From positions 124,001 through 188,000 of the forward strand of contig JAFCMP010000134.1 of assembly GCA_017506865.1 (NCBI GenBank): DNA of 64,000 nucleotides. The letters are read 5' to 3'. Source of the stretch: Tribonema minus (lineage: Eukaryota > Sar > Xanthophyceae > Tribonematales > Tribonemataceae). A program made the translations under genes and the position numbers. Under the pieces are notes generated by a model. That model was not told where the DNA came from, did not search any database, and was given only the letters and a program-made list of their open reading frames with translations. Positions 9,091 through 32,989 of this stretch are shown in pieces. How positions within the stretch are numbered: the first letter of the stretch is position 1; each line of letters opens with the position of its first letter.

Positions 9091-11402
9091 CTAGCTATGT
9101 CCAGCTGCCTCAGTTTGCGATGGCGGCGCCAGCTGCGGCAGAGTGGCGCCAGCCCTGATGTCCTCCAATAGCTCCCTTACTCTCGCAACAGGCTCGCCCG
9201 CACCAGAGGCGCGCTGCAACACGAGCGCCTGCAGCTGCGCAGCCGCCTGCGCCGCTCGCGCAGCAACGCCCCCCATCTCCGCCTCTCCCCCCCTCAGCTC
9301 TGCAATGAGAGCGTTGATGTCCTTGAGCATGCACAGGTGCACTGGGCCATGCCCTGTGTCGGCGCCGCCGCTGCTGCTGCTGCCGCTGCCCGCTGCGCCA
9401 GCAGTCTCGCCGCCGCAGACGTCAGCAAGCTGTGAGGCCAGGGTCTCCACTGGGCCCCACCCGCCCGCCACCGCTATGGCCTCCGCCGCGCCTGGCCAGT
9501 CCATCAGCGACAGCACAAAGGTACTCGCCGCCGCTGCGCCCTGTACGCCGCTGACGTGCTCCAGGTGCACCAACGCCGCTTCATACTCGCTGCGCGCTCC
9601 GCCGCCTGCTTTGGTCACGCGCGCCGGTCTGGCGGCTTTGGTGCTGCGCACCTGCGCTGCCGGCGCTGTCGCGCCGCCGCCACGCTGCTGCAGAAAGGCC
9701 TCGGCAGCTGCAACGCTGCGCTGCGCAGCACCGCGCTGGGCGTGCCACAGCATGGCCAGAGCCTGCGTGAGCACTGAGGACAGCGCACTTTCGTCCGCAG
9801 CGCCATCCGACGCACGCGCCAGGCGCACCAGCTGCCAGACTGCGCTGCGAACGGCGGCGGCGCTGCTCCCTGCTGCGGCACGCAAAGCGACGCCGGCACG
9901 CTCCATGTCGGTGGCGGCAGTCGGGCTCTGCGGCGGCGCGTTGAGCAGCCGCCTTAGATGGAAGCGCAGCGCACTGCTGAGGATCTCAAGCAGGCGGCGG
10001 CGCAAGAACGACTCGCTGCTGACGCCAGGGCCCGACAGCTGTGCTTGCGCATCACCAGGCGCGCCTCCGGCTGATACCTGCATGTGGAGGCAAGAGATCT
10101 CTGCGAGCAGGAGAGTGGCGCAGCCGCCCGCATAGCGCGCGCACGCGGCTGTCCCTATGTCCCGGCACGCTTGCTCCACCACTGCCTTGAGAGCCCCGCT
10201 CTGCTCCAAGGGCAACACCGCCTTCCCGGCCGTCGCAGCGCTGCCTGTACCGGCTGCTCTCGCCACCGTGGCAAGCCCCTGCAGCAGCGCCAGCATTGGC
10301 AGCTCTCTGCTGGTAGACCCGCCATGGCCCATAGCCCGGCATAGCGCCATGGACTCACGGCGCACAGCCATCAGCAGCAAGGCGACGGCTTCCACGTGCT
10401 GAGCGCTGTCTGGTCTGGCGTCGCAAGGCGGGTCGATGGTGGACAGGTCGTAGGCGCAGAACAGCACTCGCATGGGCCGCGCGCTGCTGGCAGCAGTTGC
10501 GCCAGAGGCGGCATCGCCCAATACTGCCGCCGCCTCCAGCGCCACAAGGGCCTTGAAGAGCGGCAGCAACGGCTCGCACATGCGTGAGGTGCCGCCGCCG
10601 CCGCCGCCGCTGCGCTCTGCCAGGCAATGCGCTGCTGCCAGAACCACAGGCATCACGCAGCCAGGCACGTGTGTGTCACCGAACCACCGCCGCGCACACT
10701 CGCACACGGCCGTGGCAGTGATGGCGCTGGTGACTGAGGCGCTGAATGGCACCAGAGGCCCGTTGTCAGGCAGCGCTGCGCACACAGGTCCGTTCCCCCC
10801 CTGTGCGTCTGCCGTCAGCACTAACTGCGCTGTGCCGGAGGGCGCCAATTTCCTGCGCCTCTGTGTCGCCGCCGCTGCAGCGGTGGCGGCGGCGGCAGCA
10901 GAGGCTGCTGGCTTGCGTGCAACCTTTGCAGCTGATGACACCGTTGCTGCCGCTGCTGTCTTGGCTCCAGCGGGCCGCCTTGCAGGCATGGGCTCGCCTC
11001 TCATTGCCTGTGTTTTGGCGACAGGCAGTGCCGCAACGGCTGGCGCCTTCACCGGGGTAGCAGCAGCAGCAGCATGAGGAGAAAGAAGAGCTCCGCTGCC
11101 CGCTGGCGCTGCTACACACGCCTTGCCGCGAGCTCGCGCTCTCCCCCCCGTACTCGCACCTGCGAGAGCTCCAGCGTTGGCAGCCACTGGCACCGCAGCA
11201 GCTGTACCACCAGCAGCACTGCTCGGGCCAGCGCGCGCACCCTTTGCCGGAGCAGATGTAGCAACACGCTTCCTTGGGGCCGTTCTGCTAGAGAGCGCCT
11301 CCTTGCGTTGGCGTGGCTGGGGTTGAGGAGCTGCCGTGACTACTGGTGGACCAGCCGCAGCAAACGCATGCTGCGGCATGGCGACCTGTCCATCACCACC
11401 GC

Positions 11403-11453
<51 letters not shown>

Positions 11454-13029
11454 CGCAGGTACTGTCGAGTGCATGACTCGTATCATCCTGCCCGCACAAT
11501 GCTGGCGTACCTGGCAGTGTTTCTGCACCAGCGCTGTCCTTAGCAGGTGTTGGGGGCTCCGGTCCTTGCGCCCCCCTTCCTAAGCTGCACCGCAGAGCAA
11601 TGCGTACACTGCGTCGGCGCCCCGGATCGCCAGCTGCTGCTGCTCCTTGAGAGGTGCTGGCTGTGCCGAAATCCGCTGAGTTCTGCGGCAGCCGCTCGTA
11701 CGAGTCCCCGCCATCGCCCAGCAGCGACTCGTCCATGACTAGGATGCCGCCTTCGCCGCCGCTGAAATCGCCAACACTGCCAAAGTCAAAGTCGTCGAAG
11801 GGCATGGCCACCTCCTCTACGACCACGCTGCTCTCGAAGTCATGAGGTGTGCCGCTGCTGTGCTCGAGCATTGCCTGTTCCGCTAGCAGCTGCACCTGCT
11901 GGGTGGCATGCTGCTGCGACGGCAGCGGCGGCGGCGGCGGCATGGCTTCCCCCTCTGCTTCTGCTGGCGCTGGTGGTGCTGATGATGCTGATGGTGGTGC
12001 TGATGCTGCTGATGGTGGTGCTGATGGTGCTGCCGCTACTGCGCCTGCAGGCTTGCTGAGAGTGCGGCGTGCAAGAGTTGAGGCTGGGCCAGCCGCCGTA
12101 AGTGGAGGCGCTGGTGCTGGTTGTGTGAAGGTCCACCCGCCCAGATCAGGCCCGCATTCGCCAAGTCCTTGCGTGCAAAGCTGAGCGAAGGCTGTTGAAA
12201 AGGCTGTGGAGTCCCTGTCTGTCGCAGCTTTGACTAACTGCGCAATCTGCGTGCGCAGTAACGACAGGTCATCCTCGGCGGAGTCCCTCGCGGCAAGCAG
12301 CTCACTGGCCTCTGCAGCGCTTGATGCCTCGGAGCGCTTCACGTGTCCCCGCCAGCCTTCCAGTGCAGCAGTAGTTTGTTCGAGTTTTGAGCGCAGCGCC
12401 TGCAGCTCTGTCTCGTACTCCGCTTGTGCGCTAGTCACCCTGCCAAGCTCGGCTTGAAGGCTCGAAGTAGTTGCCTGTGCCTCTTGCAGCTGAGCAAGGC
12501 ACACCTCGCCAGACGCCTGCTGTGCGCCTGATGATTGCTGCACATGAAGTGCCGCCAGCTCTGCCTTCAGAGACTCCACTTCGATGGCCAGTGCACTAGC
12601 TCTGCTCTCGCTGGAGCCGGCCATGATCTGCAGCTCCTGGTTCCGCAGGGTGAGGTCCTGAATGCGAAGCATGAACCGCCGAGTATTACCGCCCTCCACA
12701 ACAGCTGCACGATTCGTTGACCTATGCGATGTCGCCGTTGCCGCTGGCACTGGTGCAGCCGTGGATTTGGCCACTGCAGCACGTAGGGATCGATTGCGAG
12801 GTGTGCCATCCGCAGCTGCAGATGTCGCCGCTGCTGTTTGGTCTACCAGCGAGCGCGATGACTGCCTCCGAGGTGTCGATGCAGGCACTGGCGCAGGTGA
12901 AGCTCGTGATTGCTTGCGAGGGGTGCCTGCAGGAGCCTTGCCTCGTGGAACCCTCGATGGTGGCACGTTCTCATCGCTGGTGTTGCGCCGGGCCTTGCCA
13001 GGGCCTAGCGAAGGCGCAGGCGGGTCCAT
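9091..13029 (-). CDS. 1312-residue Ala-rich coiled-coil protein, single exon
   Basis: Family not recognised. One uninterrupted frame runs from the ATG at 13029 to the stop at 9091, unusual among the intron-rich neighbours. Residues 1-90 are basic and disordered with three similar sites, TPRKQSR (36), TPRRQSS (52) and TPRNRSL (76), which look like proline-directed kinase sites, and a DENVPPS motif (19-25). Residues about 125-275 form a coiled coil rich in Leu, Glu and Gln. About 410-440 is acidic (FDDFDFGSVGDFSGGEGG). A poly-Ala run near 535-552 is encoded by the GCT repeat at 11404-11452. The C-terminal 550 residues alternate Ala-rich helices and small loops, possibly an alpha-solenoid. The layout recalls cytoskeletal or mitotic scaffold proteins, but this is only a resemblance. 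GC content is much higher than in the flanks. It is divergent from the SLC25 fusion gene. Confidence 0.75.
11404..11452 (-). repeat. Trinucleotide tract coding for poly-Ala
   Basis: About sixteen CAG units on the + strand read as GCT/GCA alanine codons on the coding - strand. Such tracts change length easily. They shift no frame here. Confidence 0.85.
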
Positions 13030-13175
13030 GCTGCCCCTGCACTACGCGGAATCCGCACAACTTCCTACTGCTGGTACTATGTCCTCTGAATAATGCCAAC
13101 CGTCATTTTTGTTCACGCCCTTCGCGCCACGTGTAACGCTTCGAAAATCTCGTGCAACAAGGGCTGCATGCTGTG
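13030..13175. promoter_or_regulatory. Short shared divergent promoter region
   Basis: Only about 146 bases separate the start codons of the 1312-residue gene (-) and the SLC25 fusion gene (+). Both 5' UTRs and core promoters must lie here or overlap the coding regions. I see no clear TATA box. Confidence 0.5.
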
Positions 13176-16100
13176 ATGACGCGAAGCCGTAGGATGTGGC
13201 GTGGTGTGGGCGCTGCCTCCGTAGTGCTGACATGCGGATGCCTACTTGCATCCAAGTGCAGCGCATTGATCGCACATCATCGAGCAGGCCTGCCTTCTCG
13301 TCCACCAACATGGCGAATAAGATCGCACGGGCTTGGCGCCACCGCTCGTAGGCCTTCTCTGCTATGTGCGATGGACCCGGAATCGCATGGCAATGTGCAG
13401 CTCCCAGATGGCTCGGATGCACACTGCACAGGACAGCCGCAGAGCTTGCACCCCTCCGCAGATTCCAGCATCGAGCTGTCCCCGATGTCTCGGCGCCAGT
13501 TCGTCGGTGCCGCTGCGGCCACCACCGCCGCATCGGCTATCTTCCTAGCTCTAGGCATGGCACAACCGGGCATTGCAGATGACGACTTGGCGGCCAAGGG
13601 CGAACCTGAGCTCGTCTGGTCGGCCATCGCGGACTACGAGGAGAGCACAGCTCAGGAACGTGGGACTTATAGCCCTCGCTTCGTGGCATATCTTGCAAGG
13701 TTTCTGATCAACTATGACACTATTTCTGCCTACTGGTGGAATGCTCAGCAGACCAAGGTCAGCGTGGCCAGCGCGCAGAAGTTCAGCAAGCGGCTAATCG
13801 AGGAGGGCGCCACCTCGGTGTTTTACAACCTGGATCTTGACGGCAACGGCAGGTGAGCATCAATACGTGTCAGGCTTGTCTGTCTTGCAAATGACATACT
13901 GCAATCACGCGCACTCAAATGTAGCTGCTGTGTACAACAGGTCGATGTCTCATGCTAACGACACGTGGCAGTTACTCGGGCAGCTGTATGATCAGGAAGC
14001 GGCCTTTGTTCACAACACTGGCAGGCTTGTTTTATTTTGTAACTGTACAAATATGCCACATATACTGCCGTGCATGGCTGCTGTAACTTTGCAAGTATCG
14101 CACAGAAATGCACCGCAAATATGTAGTACTTGACACATTACGCTGTAAAGCCATAGTATGAGTTTGAAGTGACGCACAAAATGCAAACGCGTGCACCTTC
14201 ACTGATTTGATGCTTTCACCTGTATTTGTGGCCTTGCAGCCTGAGCGAGGAGGAGTTCTATGCTGGTCTCACAGATCAGACAGAGGCCTTCTCAAAGTTC
14301 CAAGCGAGCATAGCATTTGGACTGCGCAAGTACCAGGGGAAGGACGGGGTGAGGTCGCTGTTCAAGCTGCTGGTGGAGCAGTTTGGCGAGCAGCTATCGG
14401 CCCGGAGGCAGATCGCACTGCTGTTCTCTCTGATGGACTCTGTGCAGCCGGTGGAGCTCATAAAGCGGCTCATTGGAGAAACGGACAATGCGTCCATCAT
14501 TGGATACAAGGTGGTGGATGGGGGGTCGGGGTATACGCCGGAGGCGCCACCATCAGTCAAGGTGGATGGCCCAGCGTTTCTGGATGACACGGCAGCGGCT
14601 AAGGCGGTGCTAAAGCCAACTGGGAGGCTGTTTAGAATCAAGGTGAGCGGCTTGAAGATGAGATGATGCTATCGTCCTTAAGCAGTAGCATCGCCAAAAC
14701 CATAGGTTTTTGAAAATATACTCTGTAGGCCGTAAACGTACCATACCATGACCGTTTCGTATGCTGTACCAGCACCCGTACAACAGCCGTATAATCGTAA
14801 TCGTAAAACCGTACTCCCCACCGCAAACCGCATGTGCCGTAATTGTCGTAAATATGCAATTATTATAATGCGTGTACACTATATGGTCCGCCTTGCATAT
14901 GGTGACACAGGCACAGATGACTACACGAGATGCGTACTACTAATAGCACAACTTCAACTCGCTGCAAATGCTCACATGGTGCAGGCAACGTGAGCTAGTC
15001 AATGACAAGCAAGCATCAAGCATTACCACAGATCACTGCACACAATGTCCGCAATGAGGATGCGTACAGCTTAACATATGTGTAATAGCAAGTACGCTCA
15101 GGTTTTTTACCCAAACGGTCGCTTGAGGTGTGGTTCTTTGATCAGGTGCAGAGCCACGCTGATGGTAAAGAAAAGCTTAGCCAAGTGGCTCACGGCTGCT
15201 TTTTCGCGCTGCTGCCTGTACCACCAATCAGTGTTCTGAGTACCCATCATATATGACTCATTGCATCATTTCTGCTGATGACTTGTCAAGTAGCATGCAG
15301 TTCAGCACAAAGATCAGCCAGGGTAGCTTCAAGATGAGCACAGGATTTCAATTGTTGCACCTTGCAACGTGCAGTTGCTTTGGTGCTGTAACTTCTTTCA
15401 AGAATAGATGACTGATTGTGCAAGTGATTATCGCAGTCAATGTGACAGATGTGTCGTTCGATAGACCACTGGGCAATTGGCCGTTGATGATTAGCTCTGG
15501 TGCTGTTACAGTTTCTGCAGATCACTGATCTCTTGTCGCAGGTCATGAGCGGCGTTAGTAACCATTGAGTCCTTGCAGACATCAGGAAATAACATTTGGC
15601 ACTGTGTGCCAGATTTCGGCATGAAGTGCTGAGATGTCACGCTTACATGTGCTGGCTGTTGTTGCCCTTGTCAAATCTTTCAGCTCTTTTCAATTTGATG
15701 ATAATGATGATAAACAGTGTTGGAGGGAAGTCGCAATCCATCTGGCTTGCACATTCAACTACGGCGAGGGCGGCCTGCAAACAGAGTTATTTGCCTGTCA
15801 TGAATCACAGATCATTTAAGTCTGTTGCCTGTCATGAATTGCAGGTCAACTCTACATACTTTGAAGTTATTGCTTCATCACTGATCAAATGACGTGCTGG
15901 GTGCAGGCAGTTTGTCTGCCTCAATGGCAGACCACACCTCCTGAGGTGAACACAGTTTTCACTTGAGGGGATTGAAGTTCATGTATTCAGGCAATCTCTC
16001 TTGCTGTTGATCTGGGTGTTCAGCTCAATCAGTCTCTGATACTTCAGCAACCTCGCTGCAGTCATTGGCTGTCGGGAGCAGTTTGCTCGGAATTTTGGAG

Positions 16101-19100
16101 CACATGCCTTTGTGTGTGAATATGCATACATCCAGCAGGCTGTACGCCATTCTTTTAGAGGATGGATGCACATGATGTGAACATGCTTACCTGTCAGGTG
16201 CATGAAGCTTTTCAGTGTCAGGCATGCCAGGCGTTGACATATCATATGAACATGAGGTCTAAAGTGATGCAGCGTGGTCACATATGTGTCCTTCACAAAC
16301 ATGATTGAATTGAATTGCACTGCCTTACTTTTTTATGCAGCGTCTTTCATTAAGATTGGTGCTTTGCATCATGTTTAAGTACCTACCTACCCGGTGATGA
16401 CACGTGATCCAAATGCTGATGGAGTTGTCAGCGCAATATGTACTACAGTGCCATCACCGCCATGTTCATCATTGTTGCATATGTTATATGCATGTATGCA
16501 GGTGACCTCACCTGGCAAGGGCTACGTCAAGGCCCCTGACGTCACCATCAGTCCCCCTCGGGCATCATGGGGGCGAGCAGCCACTGCCATGTGCATGCTC
16601 AAAGGGGACAAGCTGGCGGGTGTCGTGCTGACCAACCCCGGCAAGGGCTACACCACAGGCGACGACATCAGAGTCATGATAGCAGGCCCTGCCATCAACA
16701 TGACGGCCATCAACGTAACGGCCGCGGGCGCGGGGGAGGTCATAGAGCGCATGATGGGCGGAGCCACGGCGGAGGCTATCCTGGACATGATGGTGGGGGA
16801 GGTGGCGGTTGTCAAGCCAGGATCGGGCTACGGCGTCGATCTGCCGATCACTGTCACGGTGGATCAGCCGCCAACGCGCGTCGACTTTGCCAACTTTGGC
16901 CAGGTGGCCAAGGTGGAGGCAGTGCTGTCGCCGCCGCCGGAGGGAGAGCTGCTGAGGTCGTGGCTGCCGCCGGCTTCGTTGCAGCAGGCAGTGACGGAGC
17001 TGCTGCCCAATAACCTGGTGCCCAAGCTGGACCCGTGTCTGGGGAAGTTTTACATATCCCCCATCCAGGTGAGCCTGCTGTTTGACTCAAAGACTCTACA
17101 CTTCAACAATCAAAGTAAGCTGACATGCCGCGTTGTATTTGCAGCTGTCAATCAATGGGTGGCATTGCCCTGGTCTGGTGGCATGCAACTAGCTTGAGCG
17201 AGGAGTTCAGAAATACATAGATTTTACATTAGTAAGTCCACATGACACAAGCATGCATGCAATAGGTGCATCTGGCAGTCCTAATGCACCTATGACCTTA
17301 GGTGGTGTCCTGGTGCAGCCGGCATCTTCAATGCACTACCTTATACTCTTGTTGGGGGATGGCCGCCATCCAAGCCACTTGCATAGGGGTGTGGAATTTG
17401 GTGCTACGCGTCTACCTATGTTGGGCTAGAGGTTGCAGATCACTCAGACCCTGCTCGTGAGTGGCGCAGCATTTGGTGCCGATGGTGTCGCTTGAAGTGC
17501 ATACTGCAGCAGTGCTCATCTTGTTTTTGTTCCATCTACATCTGCTTTAATGTCTAAGGAGCTACAACAAGCTTTTGACACCATCCGTATGGTGCTGCTC
17601 TGCTTCTGCCGCAGGTGCTGGACCCCAAGTACTGCATTTATTACGACAACAGCGAGTTCCAGATCTACCCCAGCCAAAAACTGGCACCGTATTTCTCATT
17701 CCTGGACGGTCCGCGTGCCCGATACCCAGTTGAGAAAGAGCGGCCGTTGGACGTCGGCGTGTTCCTGAGGTTTGCTGCGTGCGGTGCAGCATGCGGCGCG
17801 ACTGCGCACGCTGTCCTTATCCCCATTGATGTGGTCAAGACGCGTATGCAGAGCGAGCCGCGCAAGTACCCAGGCATGGTCAGCACATTCAAAACGCTGC
17901 TTGAGGAGGAGGGGAAGGATGCGTTCCTGCTGGGGGCGGGAGCCACCATTACCGGGTACTTTGTGTACGGTGGAGTGAGCTTTGGTCTGACGGAGTTCTT
18001 CAAGCGCAAGTTTGTGGAGATCTGCGGTCCTGAGTTTGCTACGCTGTATCCAGTGCCGCTGCTGCTGTTTGCAAGGTGGGTGTTCTCTTGCTATTTGCAT
18101 TTATAACGTGTCAGAACTGCATGTGTCTGCCTCTTACTAGGATGGTCATATTGTTCACATAGGCTTCCAATGATGGCGTGACCGGTGTCATGCTGACATT
18201 TGGGTGAAGTCGAAATGACATATTTTTCTCAGTTTGAAGCATGGGTTCACATTTGGTGTGGAGAATTGCTGTATTTGCAAGCCTCTTTCATCTTTGGGTT
18301 CTCACCAGGCACCTCAACAATGGCAGTTGCAGTATGCTCAAGACTCTTGCATACTTGCTGAGGCAATGGCAATGGCAATGACTTCAAAGCAGCACGCTTC
18401 AGTGTGAGCCATCAGTTTGAAGGCTGGGATACATGTACAACGATGCCACTTGTATCATGTTTGCACATGTCCTTGAGTTCGGTTGCAGACAGCACCAGAC
18501 CCCATGCTCAATTCAATATGCCAAACCAGCGCCATGCATAGATGCTTGTGTTTTCTTGGTCATGCTGCCTACCTGTGTGCAGTGGGTGCACGTGCAGATG
18601 GCGTATGACCTCTGCACCACAGCATGAGCTTAGTTATGCATGCCATGCTATGTAATGCTTGCCATGCCGTGCATCACACTGCCGAATGCTCAGATGTAAG
18701 CGGAAGCAGCCTTCGCACTGTAATTGAACAGACTCATCAGCATTGTCTGCACTACCAACTTCACTTATTGATCGGTGAGGTTACGTGGCTTGTTGAGAGC
18801 CTTGACATGAAAAGAAATATGCTCACTCACTCACATCACCTATATTTTCACTTCCTTTCTCCTGCAGTGCTATGGCGGCCACCTTTGCCGCCACTGCCGT
18901 GACTCCCTTTGAGAGCCTGCGCATCAAAGCAGTTACCAGCCCCGGCTTCCCACGCACGCTCATTGGCGGCCTACAAGAGGTAGCGCGGCGCGGCCAGACT
19001 CGTGAGCTGTTTGACGGCGTACCCGTCCTGCTGCTGGCCGAAATCCCATATATGATGGCAAAGTTCGCCGTGTTTGACGCCGCGTCCAAGCTCGCCTACA

Positions 19101-19516
19101 GCCTGTTCCCCCAGGCAGGGGAGTCTGTGACATTGAGCCTGCTGGTGTCGCTGCTTAGCGGGATGGTAGCGGGCGTTGCTGCCTCCTTAGTGTCGCAGCC
19201 GAGTGATACCATACTTGTTGCAGTGAATGGGGAGGCGGAGGAGGGGGGTCGCATGGATATTGTGGGGACAGTCAGGAACAAACTGAAAGAGGGGGGCGTA
19301 GCGGCGTTTTACAAGGGCTCTGTGCCACGTGCCATCAAGAGTGCCATCAACATTGCCATACAGTTCTTCCTGTACGACAGCTGCAAGCGGCTTGCGCATG
19401 TGGGTCCTGATGACATCAAAGTGTTCTTTGATGTCATGAGCGGCCTCGAGATAGGACTCAAGGGCGCAGGTGGCATGGGTGCTGTCGCAAACATGATTGA
19501 AACAAACATGCGTTGA
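13176..19516 (+). CDS. Fusion: plastid presequence, Tat signal, EF-hand, GxGY repeats, SLC25 phosphate-carrier-like domain
   Basis: Exons 13176-13852, 14240-14642, 16502-17068, 17615-18075 and 18868-19516 join without a phase error into 918 residues. Order: signal peptide (8-30) and Arg-rich transit-like stretch; MSRRQFVG plus a hydrophobic segment and AQPGIA (104-135), a twin-Arg thylakoid-type signal; an EF-hand loop DLDGNGRLSEEE (220-231), which forms only after exons 1 and 2 join; four repeats of the type V-x-x-PG-x-GY (about 330-510); and a carrier domain (about 590-900). The carrier has PIDVVKTRMQ, PFESLRIK and a degenerate third motif PSDTILV, with EIPYMMAKF. This resembles the mitochondrial phosphate carrier SLC25A3. 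Expected role: phosphate or anion transport in a plastid membrane, perhaps the thylakoid, possibly sensed by calcium. Start chosen at the ATG that begins the signal peptide; an in-frame ATG 24 bases upstream is possible. Families are seen; the function is inferred. Confidence 0.85.
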
Positions 19517-20697: not shown

Positions 20698-23231
20698 ATG
20701 ACGTCCATTTTTGAGTCTTACCACGAGGAGTTTGTGACGCTCACGACAGACCTCAGTCGCAACATCAGCCATGCCTCTACCTACGAAACCAACCCAGCGG
20801 CGAGGTCCGGACAGCTCCGACAGGCCAATGTGCTCCTGGGACAGGCAGATGACCTGCTGAAGCAGATGGAGGTGGAGGCACGTAGTACACCAGACGCTCC
20901 TACACGGCGAGACCTCCAAGCCAAGGTGAGCCTGTAGGTGGAGCTTTGGACTAGGGAGTTACACGAGGGAGGAGGGGGGGGGGATGCTCTTTGGCACCGC
21001 GTCTGCTAGCCATACTCAGCTATTCCGATCCATCCGTTCCTCGTTCGTATCACAATTCGCCATCTTCACCGTCGTCTTCCATTTGATGGCATCGACTCTG
21101 GTATTGTTCGCTTTGCGCAGGTGGCGTCCTACAAAAAGTCTCTTGCGTCGGTTCGGCGAGACTACCAAACGGCTGTAGAGAAAACAGAACGGCAAGGCCT
21201 GATGTCAACTGCAGACGGTTTGGAGGTAAGTCGTGAGATTGAACACAGGCCTCGAATGCACAAGCATGCTTTCGGCTGCGATTGATGACATACTGGCCTT
21301 CGATTTGAGGCCGTGTTCAAACAATGCCTTCACTGATCACTTCTCATTGGTGCTGCCCAGCTGATGGCGATCAAGAGTACAGTAAAGCTGATGGCGATCA
21401 AGAGTACAGTAAGCGCGGGACGTCTACGCACTCTGGGATTCTCTGCATATCACTTTGAGTAGCATTGTGGTCGATGCATTGGTGGGGCACTGTCGAGCAA
21501 CTGATGTCGTGCGCAACAGCGTTTTTCATAGTGGCAACCCATCATGCCACCTGACTTGCTTAATGGCAGACTGTCATGCCACCTGACTTGCTTGCATGGG
21601 TCTCATGTTAGTGTCTGCCTGTGACTCATGCCTTCCCGACATGGGCACTGGCGCTTACTGAAGATTTCCAGCATTTCAATGACAATGTTCAGCCCGTCCT
21701 GCCCTCCTATACGCACATCACGCAGACATTGGTTTCTTGAGGAATACACTGTTGAAGTGATTCCTGCTGAATAAGCTGCAATGAGAAAATAACCGGGATT
21801 GGTGTCACACTAGCGACCGCCATCTTTGTGTTTGTCATCGTTTGAATATGGTCGACGCAGACAGGTGTCATTGTGGCTCATGTGCTGCTGCGCAGACAGG
21901 TCCTCTTATGCAGAGACAAGTTCTTCGACAGGGCCTTCTATGAAGCAAGCGTGCTGCAAAAGTACACAATCTTTTCAAGGTGTTGAGTCTGACTGACCGT
22001 CGTACAGCACCTATATTCACAGGCGGGTGCCTCAAAGGAGCACAGGGAACGGCTGCTCAAGACAGGCGACAAGCTTAATGAGCAGAGTGAAATGCTGGCC
22101 AACAGCAAGCGGACTATACTGGAAATTGAGGGTGTTGCGGGGGAAATCACCACAGAGCTGGGTCGCAATAGGGAGACCATACAGAGCGCGCATGGGAAGG
22201 TGAGCCATCGCCCAATCACCATATGCAAAATGCAGCATCTGACAAGGACACTCAGAGCTGGCCATGTGCACGTCTCTGTGGACTGATGACTGAAATTGCA
22301 GCAAATGGTGTACAGGTAGCGCGTGCATCACCGCATTTGACAGACAGCAACAACGTCTGCTTATCACCACAACATTGTGTCAACATGAACTTGGCCACGC
22401 CTCACCAATGCAGCAAGATGTATGCCCCCTGTGTAGTGGTAATTTAATTGTGTCATGTAGCATCCTCCAAGACATGAGCAATTTCTGTCAAGCTTCGTTG
22501 AAGTCTGGCAGAGCATTGTGACAGCAGCAAGTGCTCAGTATAGCCCAGTGCGCCACGATATCATATGATACAGTCCGACAGTCCTGGAAGATGACGAGTA
22601 CTGGATTAGGCATATAATACAGCGGTTTGGGGGCGCAGACTGCATGGATTGAAGTGTGTGTGCATACATACTCTAGGACCCCATTGTTGGTCTCAGCAGT
22701 TAGCATGTGCCACATGACACAGGCGATGGCTCATGTCACCTACAGCGAATGGGTACCTTGTTGTGGCAATGTTGTCAGCTTCACGTGTTGTACTGAAGCA
22801 AAAGGTTCATCGAACACGCGTCCATGATGATGCCCTTTTTATGACCCTGGATTGACTTGAAGAGAGCGAACACTTCCTGTAGCTTTGTGCAGGGTACTGA
22901 ATGCACTTAATCGTTATAACCTAAAAGCAAGTGAGCTAAAACCAGCGCAGTTCCAGGCTTCATACCAGCGGGTGCAGTGCGTCCATTGCATTTGTGCAGT
23001 ATTTCAGTGAGGATCTGAGGTGTTGACTTACTTTCCATGCCTCTCACTGCATGTTTTTGTGCACGTGCGTGCATGCAGGTGAGGGAGGTCAGTGCCATGA
23101 CAGCAAACGCAAGGCGGCTGGTGCACAACATGAGCAAAAGAGAAGTACAACAGCGGTTCATCTTGTGGGGCATTGCTCTCCTACTGCTCCTGGCTGTGAT
23201 CTTGGTCATTTATTTTGCAGTGAAGAAGTGA
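20698..23231 (+). CDS. Vti1-type Qb-SNARE
   Basis: Exons 20698-20925, 21121-21225, 22023-22199 and 23079-23231 are all phase 0 and give 220 residues, the usual Vti1 length. The N-terminus (MTSIFESYHEEFVTLTTDL) matches the start of Vti1 proteins and begins the three-helix Habc domain. The SNARE helix spans about residues 135-195 and includes ELGRNRETIQ, which carries the zero-layer Gln of Qb-SNAREs. The last 25 residues are one membrane anchor (ILWGIALLLLLAVILVIYF) with a short basic tail. Vti1 acts in membrane fusion between Golgi, endosomes and vacuole, anchored by its tail in the membrane. Nothing is missing. Introns are 195, 797 and 879 bases. Small direct repeats lie in intron 2 (a 26-bp tandem near 21361-21412). 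Confidence 0.93.
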
Positions 23232-25490: not shown

Positions 25491-28400
25491 CTAGTCTGTC
25501 CAACTGATAGCATCGCCGTTGCGCAGCAGGTAATCACATGGCACCTGATTACCTTCCACCATAATGTCCACTGATGAACGCCCCCGCATTCTGCGCGAGT
25601 AAAAATTGGCAATACTTACACGCCGTGCTACGTCTGCCGCTGTTGCACTTTTATCGAGGTCCCATATGAGACCGTCCGGACCGAACACGTAGACTTTGCG
25701 GGACTGCAGTTCGCTGTGCAGCCAGTTGACAAATGCGCGACCGTCCACAAAGTCCGCTGGAACGGCTGGGGCACCGCCGATAGTGCGAGCGCGAGGGCTG
25801 TCCGCGTGACTGGCTAGCCATTCCGTTGATCCCTCGCCCTTGTAGCCCCTGCGATGGAGCAGACAGGCAGCGAGCGTGTCAGACAATGGGTCCGTGTGGT
25901 GCAGCTGATTACATGTGCATATGATACATCAGCGTCAAAGTTTCAAATGCGCCAGGCAAGTGCAGCCATAGTGGTTGCCGTGGCTGCCAGAAGCAGCTTG
26001 ACATGTGTACAGCCAGGAATATGTGCGTGCACAGTTCTCAAGTACACACAATGCAACTGATGACAGCCTGCAGATTGCATCTCATCATCAACTAGCACAG
26101 GAACGCCCGAATGCTGGATGCTGACGTCTACACAAAAATGCACTTCCTGTGCTGCAACAGAATGCTGCTGGAGGCAAGCTTAACAGCAATAATACCAAGC
26201 AAATACACACACCAAGGCAAGTGGTGCACTATGTACGGCTGCAATGCAAATGAGTGTGAACAAGGGGCGTTGCACGCACACACCATTCAAACACGCTCAC
26301 TAACATACAGCGCCACTTACCAGTGAGCAGCAGCGCCGTATTCCGCCTGTTGGTGCATCTCAAATGTGCGCACCTGCACCTCAAATGGGTGCACGTTGTC
26401 AGGGTCACGGTCGCACTGCATGAGAGCCGTGGTGTGCAGGGACCGGTAGCCATTGGCCTTGGGCGCGCAGATGTAGTCCTTGAAGCGCGTGGTGACAGTG
26501 GGGTAAAGGCCCTCCACAATGCGCATGGCCTCATAGCACAGCGCCTCAGAGCGAGACTCATACTGGGCGTCAGTCTCGGCAGGAAGGCGCCGCGCCTTGA
26601 AGACCACGCGCAGTGCCACCGCATCCGCTATGTCTGCCACCGCCACACCCTGCCGAATTGTCTTCCGCCACATGGAGTAGGGGTCTTTGGTGCGCCCCGC
26701 CAGTGAGACGCTCTCCACCGCCGCCATAAACGCATTGTTCTGCTCCAGGGCAGATGTGAGGTCCGCTATGGAGCGATCCAGCACCGCCTCGTGGATGTCT
26801 GTGCGTGCTGCCATCTGCTGCCGCACTTCCGCGTTCTGGCGCGGGTATAGGCATTTGAACGCCAAGTCCTGGAGTTCCGCCACAAGTTGGTGGATACCGA
26901 GGCGATGCGCCAGTGGTGCATGAACGCCTAGTGCTTCGTGCGCAAGTGCCTTGTGCTCAGAGCGGGCACGAGGTGACACGCACGCCGCTCCAGCCGCAGC
27001 AGCAGCATCGTGCCGGCGCATGCGCTGCGCACAAAGAAGGCCACGAAAGGAGCGTCAGCCTGTTGCGCATTGTTGTCAATCTAATGAGACCTCTGGTGAG
27101 TTGCATAGTACAATCAGTGATGCCATGCAGCATGGCGTGATGTGGCGGGTGAGGTGAGTGCTGCTGGGGTGAAGTTGAAGTATGTGTCACGTCATCACAT
27201 GATGACACCAGCATTTGCTTGCAACACAGAGCCAGCATATGTGTCAAGTGGTCTGCCGGGACCCGTGCCTCACACACAGTATTGTTACCGACAGTAAGGT
27301 GTCCCCAGGCTTGCAATAACCTTCTCCACAGCCAAATATGTTGTGGTCATCAAACTACAGAGGTCGTCAACAAGCCGTTGAATTGGGGACTTGATCATTC
27401 AATCATGGCAAAAGCATACTCGGGGAGCAACAAACTATGGGCCAGCACTTGACATTGGCCTGCGATAATGTTGCAGTTGCATGGCGCACAGTGACAGTGG
27501 CACTGCCAGTGCCAGTGAGTGTTGCGCAGCATCGCGTGCCACATTCAAGTGAGACAGTCTATACCAGCGCCATACCACATACTTCTTATATTAGGCAAGC
27601 AACTGAATGAGCACTAGTAGTCCAGAAATTGCTAGCCAACAGCCTTCATGAATCGCTGACCAGCCAATGCAGATGCCATATGGGCTTATGTAAGAAACTG
27701 GCGCGTAGCTGTCCTGTCACTGTGGGAAGCATAGCTCTACCTGCCTATGTTCATGTCTCTTCTGGGCAAAGGCATGGTGATCTAAGTGTTTGCGCAACTG
27801 GCTGCAACTGCAATATGGTACAAGAGGCAAAGTGTCACCTGCAGATGAGATGCCACCCGCAATATCACCACTCTCCAGTCTGCCGTTTCTGAGAGAATGA
27901 GATTCCTCAATCTGTCCATTTGCTCGGCAGCCTCCTCGCTGCTGACCTTGCCCTTGGCCTTGGCTGCACGTTCAGCCATGTACCGCTGTGCAAGTTGCTC
28001 CAACCGCGTGACGCGTTCATAGGACTGCACCAGTCTCACCTGTAAGTGCGGCAAGTTACATCGTACGTATCAGCAAAGCTGCAAAGCGGTCATGCCCCAA
28101 TGTTGTAAATAGTGAGGCATCAAGTCAAAGGCACATCTGAACATATTCGCAGTGTTTGATACAGCAACTTGCCATGGGCCAAGCCGCAGTCTTGACAGAG
28201 ATGTGACCAAGCATGACACAGGTCAAGTTGCAAGTATGCGTGGTTGTACACTCACCACACGGCGACCAAAGCGGCGTTGCAGGTCCTGCACAGATGCTCC
28301 CGCTACCCCCATCGCCTTCCCTAGCGGACCCTGCTCAGGGTTCAGTGTGCCGGTTAGGATGGCTGCCAAGAGGGCATCCACATCCATGTCCAGCTCGCCA

Positions 28401-29271
28401 AGCACCAAGCACATGTCCACAGCGTTCTCTGTACGACGGCGCCCTTCGCGTGTACCGGCTGCATCAGAGTGAACCCTGGCAGAAGAGCACAGTGCCAAAT
28501 GGCAATATGATGAGACAACTGCTTGGACATGGCTGATGGAGGCCATCAACCTGTACGATCGTGATTTGGTCATGAGCAGCATTGGCATACAGAGTGCAAT
28601 TGAGTCCTTCGTCCTACGATTCAGTCATATCAACAGCCTGCAATGAACGGGCAAGCAAGAGCTGGCAAGAATCAAATACTCGTCAGCAAGTAAGCCTTGA
28701 AGACTTCGCAGGCTTTGGTGCGCTCAATCATCCTTAGGCAATTCAACAATGACTTGAGCATGAGTGCCAGCACAACTTGAGAAGGCCATTTGCTGACTGT
28801 GGCCCACAAAGTGAAGGGAGACAGTGCCAGAACCTCCAACTTGTAAGCAATAACTCCATTTCCTCACCTGAGGGCCACAGCCAGGGCGCGTTGAAGCTCG
28901 GCTTGTTCAGTCTGCCCCAAGTATGGCAGCCCATCTCTTAACTTCTCAGCGAGGTCAACAGCAGTCGATCCTGCCGGAATCGTGATGCGAAGGGCATGAT
29001 GGGGCCTCGGCGCACGGGAGGCAACCGAGTGTGCCGAAGTGCGACGGCTCAACGTGATGGAGTGCAGCAGGGTGTGATGTTGACATGAGCGCAGGGAACC
29101 TCTGGGCCTGAACGTGAGGACATCACGTAGACGCACGGACGGCCTGTTGTTGAAGCGCCTGGCCTGTTGATGCAATGGGGTCGGCGGTGGAGCCAAGTGG
29201 AACGCCGCTGCCGAATTCACTAGCCCAACAAGAGCCACCAGGGCTTGCGCCACAATTGATGATGGCGCCAT
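25491..29271 (-). CDS. Plastid RelA/SpoT homologue with degenerate HD domain
   Basis: Exons 29271-28868, 28475-28256, 28039-27839, 27024-26321 and 25848-25491 join in phase to 628 residues. Residues 1-25 are a signal peptide ending SAAA, followed by FHLAPP, the import junction of complex plastids. Residues about 125-275 align with the HD hydrolase domain. The first His is kept (VHSDAAGTREG), but the second is lost (TEN in place of a THP-like motif) and the HD pair reads TG (AAILTGTLN). The synthetase domain (about 330-505) looks intact: KDPYSMWRK, DAVALRVVF, DYICAPKANGYRSLHTT, QVRTFEMHQQAEYGAAAHW. A TGS domain follows (KVYVFGPDGLIWDL, about 550-610) and the protein ends there, with no zinc-finger or ACT part. 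Expected role: making (p)ppGpp in the plastid stroma. Hydrolase activity is not expected. Confidence 0.92.
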
Positions 29272-31368: not shown

Positions 31369-32989
31369 TTACGCGCTTCGACTCTCTGCGAGATATGCTA
31401 CAGCAGCATTGATGTCACCTTCGGTGTGTGTCAATGCCTCCCTAGCATCATCGGCGCTGTACCCCATGTCTTGCAGCATCATGACTTCATGGTCCGTGTT
31501 ACTCAGGAGTGAACTCGTCGCACCTACCCCCGCTGCGCCCCCGCCCCTGCCAGTCCCGCCATTTGCGCCACCACCAGCAGCTGCACTGCTGGGCGATGAT
31601 GCCGCCGCTCCTCTGGCTTCCAGTGCTGCCAGCCGTGCGGCACGCGCCGCTGCAGCCACATCAGTGTTTGAACCCCGCCCTAGAGCGCTGGTTACCACGC
31701 TTGTGCGACTGGTGCTGCCTCCACCAAGCGTCTGCCCAGAGCCAGTGAACGCACTGGCCGCAGGCTTTTTGTTAACAACTGATGGGGCAGTCACTGGGCC
31801 GCTGTTACGGCTTACCCAGGCACTGCCGCCGCTCCCGCTTTCACCACCATCTGCCGGCGGACCCCCCTGCTGCCCGCCACCCCCGCCGCTGCCACCGCTG
31901 GTGCCACTGCTGCCGCCAAATATGGAAGCAAACCCTCCTCCTTGTCCTCCGCCGTGACCTCCCTGTGTCCTGCCTGCAGGATTGTTGACCGGCTGCCAAG
32001 GTTCTTGCTGGGTACCGGTAGCAGTGATGTAGCCCTGGCGCGAGGTGAAATTGCGCAAACACCCGTTCTCCCAGCCCTGCACGAGCAAACATGGCAAAAT
32101 GTCAGCTTGACTTGTTGTATAGGCGCATGAGCATACAGCGGTGTTTGAAGCACTTCATGACTAGCTTGCCTCTGACATGAAGGTGATTGTGCAAAGCGCA
32201 AGTTGCGGTGCCTGCAGGGTGACTGTTGATGGATTGATTGAACTGTTCCGCCTGTATGCAAAGGACGTACCTGTACACGGGAGATGCTGGGCTTGAGACA
32301 GTCCAGCTTACCGAACGCAAAAGCGTACCCTGTGGCCAGCGCCAGTGCCATGTCCACCCTCACCCCCCCCATGATTGAAAATAATGCAAACAGCGCCAGC
32401 GGATAGTACTTGGACGGGATCTCGCAGGGGAAGAAGAAGAGTTTGCGCGGAAAGTCCGGCATCTGCATGCAGTCGACGACGATCAGCGGCATAAGTAGGT
32501 TCCACAAGCCCTGTGCTGCGGATAACTCTGCTGCGCGATTCCCCAGAGCTGTGGACAGTAGACCAAAGAGGAGGAAGGCCGAGTTGGCTGCTACATCCAA
32601 GATGGCCATCAGCGCCAGCAGGCGAGCCGAGCCGAGGGAGTATTCCATCTTGGGCCCCATCTGACTGAGAACCATGACGCCGAAGATGAGGGTGATGAAG
32701 CTGGTGCACCACAGGCTGGCGGTGAAGATGCGATACACTTCCAGGGAGTAGATCGTGTAGTGCAGGCTGTTGTTGAGGGCCAGGTCCAGATCCACGAACA
32801 TACCCAGCAGAAACAGCACGACCTGAAGGATGCACATCGATCGGGTGACAAAGGGCTTCGTGGATGCCCACCCGTTGTACCTGCACAATCAGACCAAGAC
32901 AAAAAGCAAAGGCGTGATTCAGCTGAATACTTTGCAGTTGGAAAGTGAAAAAGAACGAGAGAGGAGTGGTTGTCGACTCACGCTGTCAT
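31369..32989 (-). CDS. Rhomboid-like membrane protein with C-terminal UBA domain
   Basis: Exons 32989-32982 (only 8 coding bases, ATGACAGC), 32880-32271 and 32076-31369 join in phase to 441 residues. The start is supported because the 8-base exon fits the phase exactly and gives MTAYNGW. Residues 15-205 carry about five hydrophobic segments with the rhomboid-type features YRIFTASLWC and MEYSLGS, but no Ser-His active site is visible, so it is probably a pseudoprotease. A Gly/Ser/Ala-rich linker of about 150 residues follows. The last 45 residues form a UBA domain (VMMLQDMGYSADDAREAL). The layout resembles UBAC2, an ER protein of ubiquitin-linked degradation, although the linker is much longer. 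Likely an ER membrane protein binding ubiquitin. Confidence 0.85.

Follow-up and report, generated by a model that had tools for sequence, protein, structure and literature searches.

Can one gene unite plastid-type targeting signals, a helical domain with a predicted calcium-binding loop, repeats of a kind found in phage virions and an SLC25 carrier, and if so, in which membrane might its product work and what might it move? These questions are raised by positions 13,176 to 19,516 of a 64,000-nucleotide stretch of the Tribonema minus genome (contig JAFCMP010000134.1, positions 124,001 to 188,000; the whole stretch is called the window, and window coordinates are counted from its first letter). 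We tentatively favour, with somewhat less than even confidence, the answer that the gene encodes a carrier of the thylakoid membrane whose N-terminal domain lies in the lumen, that moves phosphate or a related anion, and that is adjusted or anchored by this domain.

The fusion gene and its paralogues

When the five exons are joined on the + strand, they yield 2757 nucleotides (nt), corresponding to 918 amino acids and a stop codon, with 0 internal stops; the observation is confirmed. All four introns (387, 1859, 546, and 792 nt) possess GT-AG borders, with the donors GTGAGC (three times) and GTGGGT (once) and acceptors of the form NNGCAG, so that the proposal of the initial annotation that five exons close in phase over 918 residues is borne out. 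An in-frame stop codon is located 42 nt upstream of the ATG without any intervening in-frame ATG. The encoded domains follow each other in the order signal-peptide-like start, twin-Arg signal, helical domain with one EF-hand loop, four GxGY repeats, and SLC25 carrier.

The locus looks like one gene, since exon 4 contains no Met before the end of the first carrier helix and since two paralogues, present on contigs C45 and C368 of the same genome, repeat the order of the parts on one strand. In the frame of exon 4, the first Met is residue 90 and thus comes after the helix-1 carrier motif at residue 82, which leaves the carrier unable to start on its own in this exon; a separate carrier gene was ruled out on these grounds, together with the order kept in the paralogues. 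One might still suspect two adjacent genes that were mis-joined, with an N-terminal domain ending before position 17615 and a carrier after it, because the junction of exons 3 and 4 is the one that lacks clear sequence continuity in a paralogue and because exon 3, when read onward, continues for 42 further residues before it meets a stop codon. The missing start codon, the order and strand kept by C45 and C368, and the ordinary character of intron 3 (GT-AG, 546 nt) make such a mis-joining highly improbable, and the single gene proposed by the initial annotation is supported.

A genome-wide search with the N-terminal domain returned eight stretches at E <= 1; four of these belong to the window's own gene, three are located on C45 (best E 4.1e-7), and one lies on C368 (E 0.2). 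C45 and C368 were also matched in a search with the carrier domain, with the pieces in the same order and on one strand, and they represent divergent paralogues with the order twin-Arg signal, helical domain, carrier. In spliced alignments, the helical/EF part (residues 141-312) scored 191 on C45 and 159.5 on C368. The 32 control stretches, eight of which were other parts of C45 or C368, gave no more than 86.5, and the 34 reversed-query runs no more than 72.5. The GxGY part (residues 309-485) scored 225 on C45, where we found three repeats and one worn copy, and stayed at background level on C368 (the same 32 control stretches gave up to 102.5, and 34 runs with the query reversed up to 99.5). 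A lone GSGYT is nevertheless present on C368 at about 387.9 kilobases (kb; L020 8135-8091, - strand) between the helical domain and the carrier. It has the expected place and strand and resembles repeat 1 of the window gene in eight of 15 residues (E 1.5); it may be the remnant of a lost GxGY array.

Several exons of C368 seem to be present twice in tandem, namely those coding for YLARFLLTYDT, PAESVRIRS, and SLLSGLVAGVCA (L021 ~4588-4292, L015 ~8109-7795 and ~4981-4637). These doubled exons could be alternative exons or could reflect decay after a duplication. On C45, positions 113827-114318 (L019) contain three tandem copies coding for (RQLAILFSF)LNRYQPV, the last of which is shorter.

Aureochromes are known from photosynthetic stramenopiles. 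Frames that combine an aureochrome-type basic region (bZIP) with a LOV domain occur at two loci of the genome (L052, L055), which marks it as that of an ochrophyte, in line with the placement in the initial annotation. The genome search also gave 92 matches to light-harvesting genes and did not find a nuclear gene for the small subunit of ribulose-1,5-bisphosphate carboxylase/oxygenase (rbcS). A green-algal origin, which genome size and intron style had brought into consideration, was rejected in view of the aureochrome-type genes and of the rbcS gene not found. The initial annotation had further made its case depend on an ochrophyte homologue with both parts of the protein. Within this genome, both parts do recur, in the two paralogues; scans of viral, bacterial, and archaeal contig collections, which are uninformative on other algae, gave no relative.

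Carrier, helical, and repeat domains

The Pfam model Mito_carr (PF00153) matches the window protein in three stretches with an E value of 5.2e-43, and solved structures matched by its carrier domain were other carriers. The Px[DE]xx[KR] motif is complete in SLC25 repeats 1 and 2 and deviates to PSDTIL in repeat 3. Val or Leu in place of Lys/Arg at this position is reported for the third motif of phosphate carriers (PMC9104175). We therefore regard PSDTIL, whose Leu is present in the window, C45, and C368 carriers alike, as a mark of the phosphate-carrier clan; what had at first been taken for a degenerate motif is not odd for this clan. An 11-row alignment, in which the yeast and human phosphate carriers were entered by hand, gives identities of the window carrier of 32-36% with the phosphate carriers C412, C334, yeast, and human, 35% with C45, 41% with C368, and 18-26% with four other carrier frames of the genome. 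The latter are all partial and stem from a search for long carrier frames at seven loci, two of which gave none (C35, C522) and one of which was left out (C64). C412 shares 54% identity with the human phosphate carrier and is taken as the mitochondrial phosphate carrier of the alga.

The His of helix 1 is kept in the window carrier and in C368 and is replaced by Arg in C45. For comparison, C334 retains, among the phosphate-carrier positions, just those of helices 2 and 4 and a single acid of helix 3. A background search of the literature gave nothing on phosphate-carrier residues. In the window copy, helices 2, 4, and 6 have kept their acidic gate residues, with Thr in place of the helix-2 gate Tyr. 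With its gates thus largely preserved, the carrier has the appearance of a functional transporter whose site has changed. Both the identities and the residue comparison support the kinship with phosphate carriers that the initial annotation had suggested, and the carrier fits the SLC25A3 clan, with phosphate as a presumed, unproven substrate. A further gene of the phosphate-carrier type, in which the helix-2 Gln and Lys are kept, is located at C334:2028606-2030386 (- strand; L014); no N-terminal fusion domain was seen there in the 9.5 kb examined.

The EF-hand loop of the window protein, DLDGNGSLSEEE (residues 220-231), is a canonical 12-residue loop of the form D-x-D-x-N-G..E. It is interrupted by intron 1 and is joined without gaps across it, as the initial annotation had held. 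When the domain was trimmed, the best EF-hand model of Pfam reached 26 of the 30 bits required. NCBIfam returned three matches, all far under their cut-offs. Solved structures gave only weak EF-hand-type matches to the N-terminal part, plus one dehydrogenase at E 1.9, and a single chance-level match to the helical domain (E = 1); the AlphaFold single-sequence model of exon 2 is helical but unreliable, with a predicted local distance difference test (pLDDT) score of 44.7. Of the 199 columns in an alignment of the three helical domains, whose C45 and C368 rows were taken from our own spliced models, 29 are invariant. Control of the carrier by calcium is at most putative, a canonical loop having been found in the window copy only.

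The GxGY repeats of the window gene are spaced by 44, 42, and 60 residues. Compared with PHROG profiles, this part matched 20 families of phage virion proteins at E <= 1 (best 1.9e-12), among them proteins of the tail fibre, the baseplate, and head closure; at E <= 0.1, the repeats of C45 matched 12 families. When almost the same stretch of the window protein was reversed once and shuffled twice, none of the three versions matched a PHROG family. A tblastn search with the GxGY part retrieved 324 phage records at E <= 0.01, 245 of them named Synechococcus phages; none reached 80% query coverage, and the best rows are about 29% identical. Solved structures gave no sequence match to the GxGY part, and the AlphaFold single-sequence model of exon 3 (pLDDT 32.5) is too poor for use. 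The profile and tblastn matches assign GxGY to a repeat type of structural proteins in T4-like cyanophages; the repeats, for which no role could be named at the outset, can thus at least be assigned to a type. They may either have been taken from a phage or go back to an older repeat common to alga and phage.

Targeting, location, and competing explanations

The hydrophobic, signal-peptide-like start of the window protein is followed further downstream by the twin Arg (residues 106-107) and, directly behind it, by a second hydrophobic stretch that ends in GIA ahead of DDDL, as judged by hydropathy. Twin Arg, hydrophobic core, and small-x-Ala end are found in all three copies, and the flanking sequences are divergent. 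The presequence of C368 (MAAAAAVTLAATAQA|FSSAQP) resembles ASAFAP, which is described as a motif of diatom plastid proteins (PMC6995639); in the window copy, Leu instead of Phe follows the likely cleavage point. The plastid- or thylakoid-type targeting claimed by the initial annotation gains support from this conservation of the twin-Arg signal.

We propose that the nucleus-encoded protein would enter the stroma by means of its signal and transit peptides, and that the twin-Arg signal, acting in the manner of twin-arginine translocation (Tat), would take the N-terminus of the mature protein through the thylakoid membrane. This would leave the part with EF-hand, helical domain, and GxGY repeats on the lumenal side, and the carrier at the C-terminus, an SLC25 domain of the phosphate-carrier clan, spanning the membrane. 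A lumenal N-terminus would be the normal orientation of such a protein, with the lumen corresponding to the intermembrane space and the stroma to the matrix, because SLC25 carriers have both ends on the proton-rich side of the intermembrane space. The carrier would most likely return phosphate or a similar small anion from the lumen to the stroma, or exchange it, and the lumenal domain, which may bind calcium in the window copy, would adjust or anchor it. The ATP-Mg/phosphate carriers have their regulatory domain on the corresponding side, and the putative one of the window protein would match them in this.

A number of findings weigh against this proposal. With regard to targeting, the Pfam model TAT_signal scores 17.3 bits on the window protein, below its cut-off of 22.7, and a Tat signal ahead of a six-helix protein is unusual. 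With regard to the N-terminal domain, five Pfam EF-hand models reach 14-17 bits on the window protein, all below their cut-offs. No canonical EF loop turned up when the strand of C368 was scanned for the motif above 388 kb, and none is visible among frames of at least 30 residues at 110.8-114.3 kb of C45; a loop split over short exons could have escaped. In C368 we did not find a GxGY array either, the spliced score being at background. On these findings, the shared design of the family consists of twin-Arg signal, helical domain, and carrier, with EF-hand and GxGY repeats varying among the copies. A review holds the single calcium-binding EF-hand of aspartate/glutamate carriers to be non-regulatory (PMC12410006), which counts against calcium control of the window carrier.

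Further points of this kind concern the substrate. None of the three fusion carriers retains the Gln and Lys of helix 2 that are common to the four phosphate carriers, or the acidic pair of helix 3 and the Thr pair of helix 6 that C412 and the yeast and human proteins possess; at these positions the window copy has Tyr and Ser, Ala and Ala, and Ile and Ile, respectively. Helix 4, whose contact pair in the phosphate carriers is [KR]Q, has Ala-Glu in the window copy and Arg-Glu in C45; C368 keeps Arg-Gln. In the carrier tree, seven phosphate-type rows of the 11 group together with weak support (68/90) and with most of the internal order unresolved, and the three fusion carriers do not form a clade. 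In plants, PHT4;1 is described to bring lumenal phosphate back to the stroma and TAAC to move ATP into the lumen (PMC3928508), and a review gives distributions for TAAC and PHT4 that exclude ochrophytes (PMC5948301). The gap in diatoms, brown algae, and their kin that these reportedly absent phosphate and nucleotide carriers leave in the thylakoid membrane is perhaps smaller than this older review has it, since a diatom survey describes for Phaeodactylum both J23830, a phosphate permease of the plastid, and homologues of TAAC that are not clearly plastid proteins (PMC9546453).

The sub-threshold TAT score would suit a carrier of the plastid envelope, in which the twin Arg with its hydrophobic stretch would serve as a non-Tat presequence element or as an uncleaved anchor. 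SAMTL, an SLC25 protein of the chloroplast envelope with one EF-hand, provides a precedent for such a carrier (placed in the outer envelope by PMC4844381 and in the inner envelope by PMC6471148), and the thylakoid carrier TAAC is reported to occur in the envelope as well (PMC3928508). Twin Arg, hydrophobic core, and small-x-Ala end are kept in three of three copies, however, and the remaining presequence is not; we therefore consider an envelope location unlikely, if far from negligible, and judge in the same way the topology that would go with it, namely an N-terminal domain directed towards the intermembrane space or the stroma. The protein might also be a thylakoid carrier of the same design that moves something other than phosphate, such as a nucleotide, sulphate, a dicarboxylate, or a metal ion. 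The altered positions in helices 2, 3, 4, and 6 speak for this possibility, and these positions also differ among the three fusion carriers, which suggests different substrates; the third motif, the overall identity, and the helix-1 His kept in the window copy and C368 tie the carrier to the phosphate-carrier clan and render another substrate rather improbable. A large N-terminal part, virion-type repeats, and a diverged substrate site would even be compatible with a transport-dead carrier that merely anchors a lumenal calcium-binding or adhesive domain in the membrane. Such an anchor is made quite improbable by the Px[DE]xx[KR] motif, intact in its first and second occurrence in the window copy, and by the equally intact acidic gates of helices 2, 4, and 6, notwithstanding the Thr at the helix-2 gate.

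A lumenal domain combined with a phosphate-type thylakoid carrier hence remains our preferred explanation, and the family is a reasonable candidate for the missing thylakoid phosphate/nucleotide step, for which it supplies three defined genes whose address and topology can be put to the test. Were this explanation true, it would add an example of a Tat-targeted polytopic membrane protein and would place a virion-type repeat within a probable domain of the thylakoid lumen. The most far-reaching version, in which ochrophytes at large return lumenal phosphate by a Tat-routed carrier from the clan of the mitochondrial phosphate carriers under the control of a lumenal calcium-binding domain with cyanophage-virion-type repeats, seems to us unlikely.

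Feature coordinates, neighbouring genes, and known transporters

Table 1. Features of the fusion carrier gene in window coordinates
Feature	Position	Strand	Content or basis
Exon 1	13176..13852	+	Start codon, signal-peptide-like stretch, transit-like region, twin-Arg signal, helical domain, EF loop start
Hydrophobic signal-peptide-like stretch, residues 9-30 (..VVLTCGCLLASKCSA|LIAHH)	13200..13265	+	Hydropathy
Twin-Arg (Tat-like) signal, residues 105-134, SRRQF...QPGIA|DDD	13488..13577	+	Motif, sub-cut-off Pfam TAT_signal, RR in C45 and C368
Helical domain part 1 (TYxPRFVAYLARFL..YD)	13596..13832	+	Three-row alignment, spliced-alignment controls
EF-hand loop part 1 (DLDGNG and 2 bases of next codon)	13833..13852	+	Motif, Pfam
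Exon 2	14240..14642	+	EF loop remainder (14240-14255), helical domain, GxGY repeat 1
Helical domain part 2 (FxxF..GLxxYxG..G.R.L..RQ..LLF..QP)	14280..14498	+	Three-row alignment, spliced-alignment controls
GxGY repeat 1 (GSGY, residue 321)	14523..14534	+	Motif
Exon 3	16502..17068	+	GxGY repeats 2-4, linker
GxGY repeat 2 (GKGY, residue 365)	16514..16525	+	Motif
GxGY repeat 3 (GKGY, residue 407)	16640..16651	+	Motif
GxGY repeat 4 (GSGY, residue 467)	16820..16831	+	Motif
Exon 4	17615..18075	+	Linker, SLC25 repeat 1
SLC25 domain part 1 (repeat 1; motif PIDVVKTR at 17822)	17747..18075	+	Pfam, alignment
Exon 5	18868..19516	+	SLC25 repeats 2 and 3, C-terminal extension, stop
Second carrier motif PFESLR	18905..18922	+	Motif
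Third carrier motif PSDTIL (Leu for Lys/Arg)	19199..19216	+	Motif, PMC9104175 comparison
C-terminal extension; start VxPDDLKxFLD kept in paralogues	19415..19513	+	Comparison with paralogues

Upstream of the fusion gene, a long Ala-rich frame occupies positions 9091-13041 of the - strand; its first Met and the start of the carrier gene are some 150 bases apart, and given this short distance, the two may share a promoter region. The next gene downstream (20698-23230, + strand) resembles, by eye, a Vti1-type SNARE with a C-terminal membrane anchor. On the - strand, inspection by eye further revealed a gene for a RelA/SpoT-like (p)ppGpp enzyme (~25500-29270) and frames like those of a rhomboid-like membrane protein with a C-terminal UBA domain (31369-32888).

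Several known systems share individual traits with the window protein. Cyanophage virion genes (PHROG 5342, 460, 701, 2885) have in common with it a G-x-G-Y followed some residues on by Pro; in two of the matched phage genes, of which 1373 and 1375 residues were read, GxGY occurs 12 and 11 times, spaced mostly by 39-48 residues, compared with four copies in the probable plastid protein of the window. SLC25A3/MIR1 agrees with the window carrier in its clan, the third-motif Leu/Val, the helix-1 His, and the helix-4 Lys-Phe; it differs in being mitochondrial and in possessing the residues of helices 2, 3, and 6, present in C412, yeast, and human, that are gone in the window copy, and it is not known to have an N-terminal domain. 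SLC25A23/24/25 lie outside the phosphate-carrier clan. In these ATP-Mg/phosphate carriers, an N-terminal regulatory domain that binds calcium precedes the SLC25 carrier, as a putative one does in the window protein, and calcium is described to draw a locking helix off the carrier (PMC7611774, PMC12410006); they are mitochondrial and possess four EF-hands and the locking helix, whereas the window protein has one canonical loop.

PHT4 proteins have another fold. TAAC and PHT4;1 resemble the proposed window protein as transporters of the thylakoid; TAAC is an SLC25 carrier with a processed form of about 38.5 kDa, and PHT4;1 exports lumenal phosphate (PMC3928508). A diatom survey names a plastid mitochondrial-carrier protein, J46742 (PMC9546453). 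Among the literature matches listed in searches aimed at this protein (all matches, except for one search with 15 of 154), there was no report of a Tat-targeted SLC25 protein. A close parallel by description is SAMTL of Arabidopsis, a plastid SLC25 carrier with a single EF-hand that is reported to move S-adenosylmethionine (PMC4844381, PMC6471148). Its existence contradicts the premise of the initial annotation that EF-hand carriers lack a plastid form, and a plastid calcium-binding carrier as such is consequently not new. The twin-Arg signal and the GxGY repeats, both unmentioned in these descriptions of SAMTL, and the membership of the window carrier in the phosphate-carrier clan are what sets the Tribonema protein apart.

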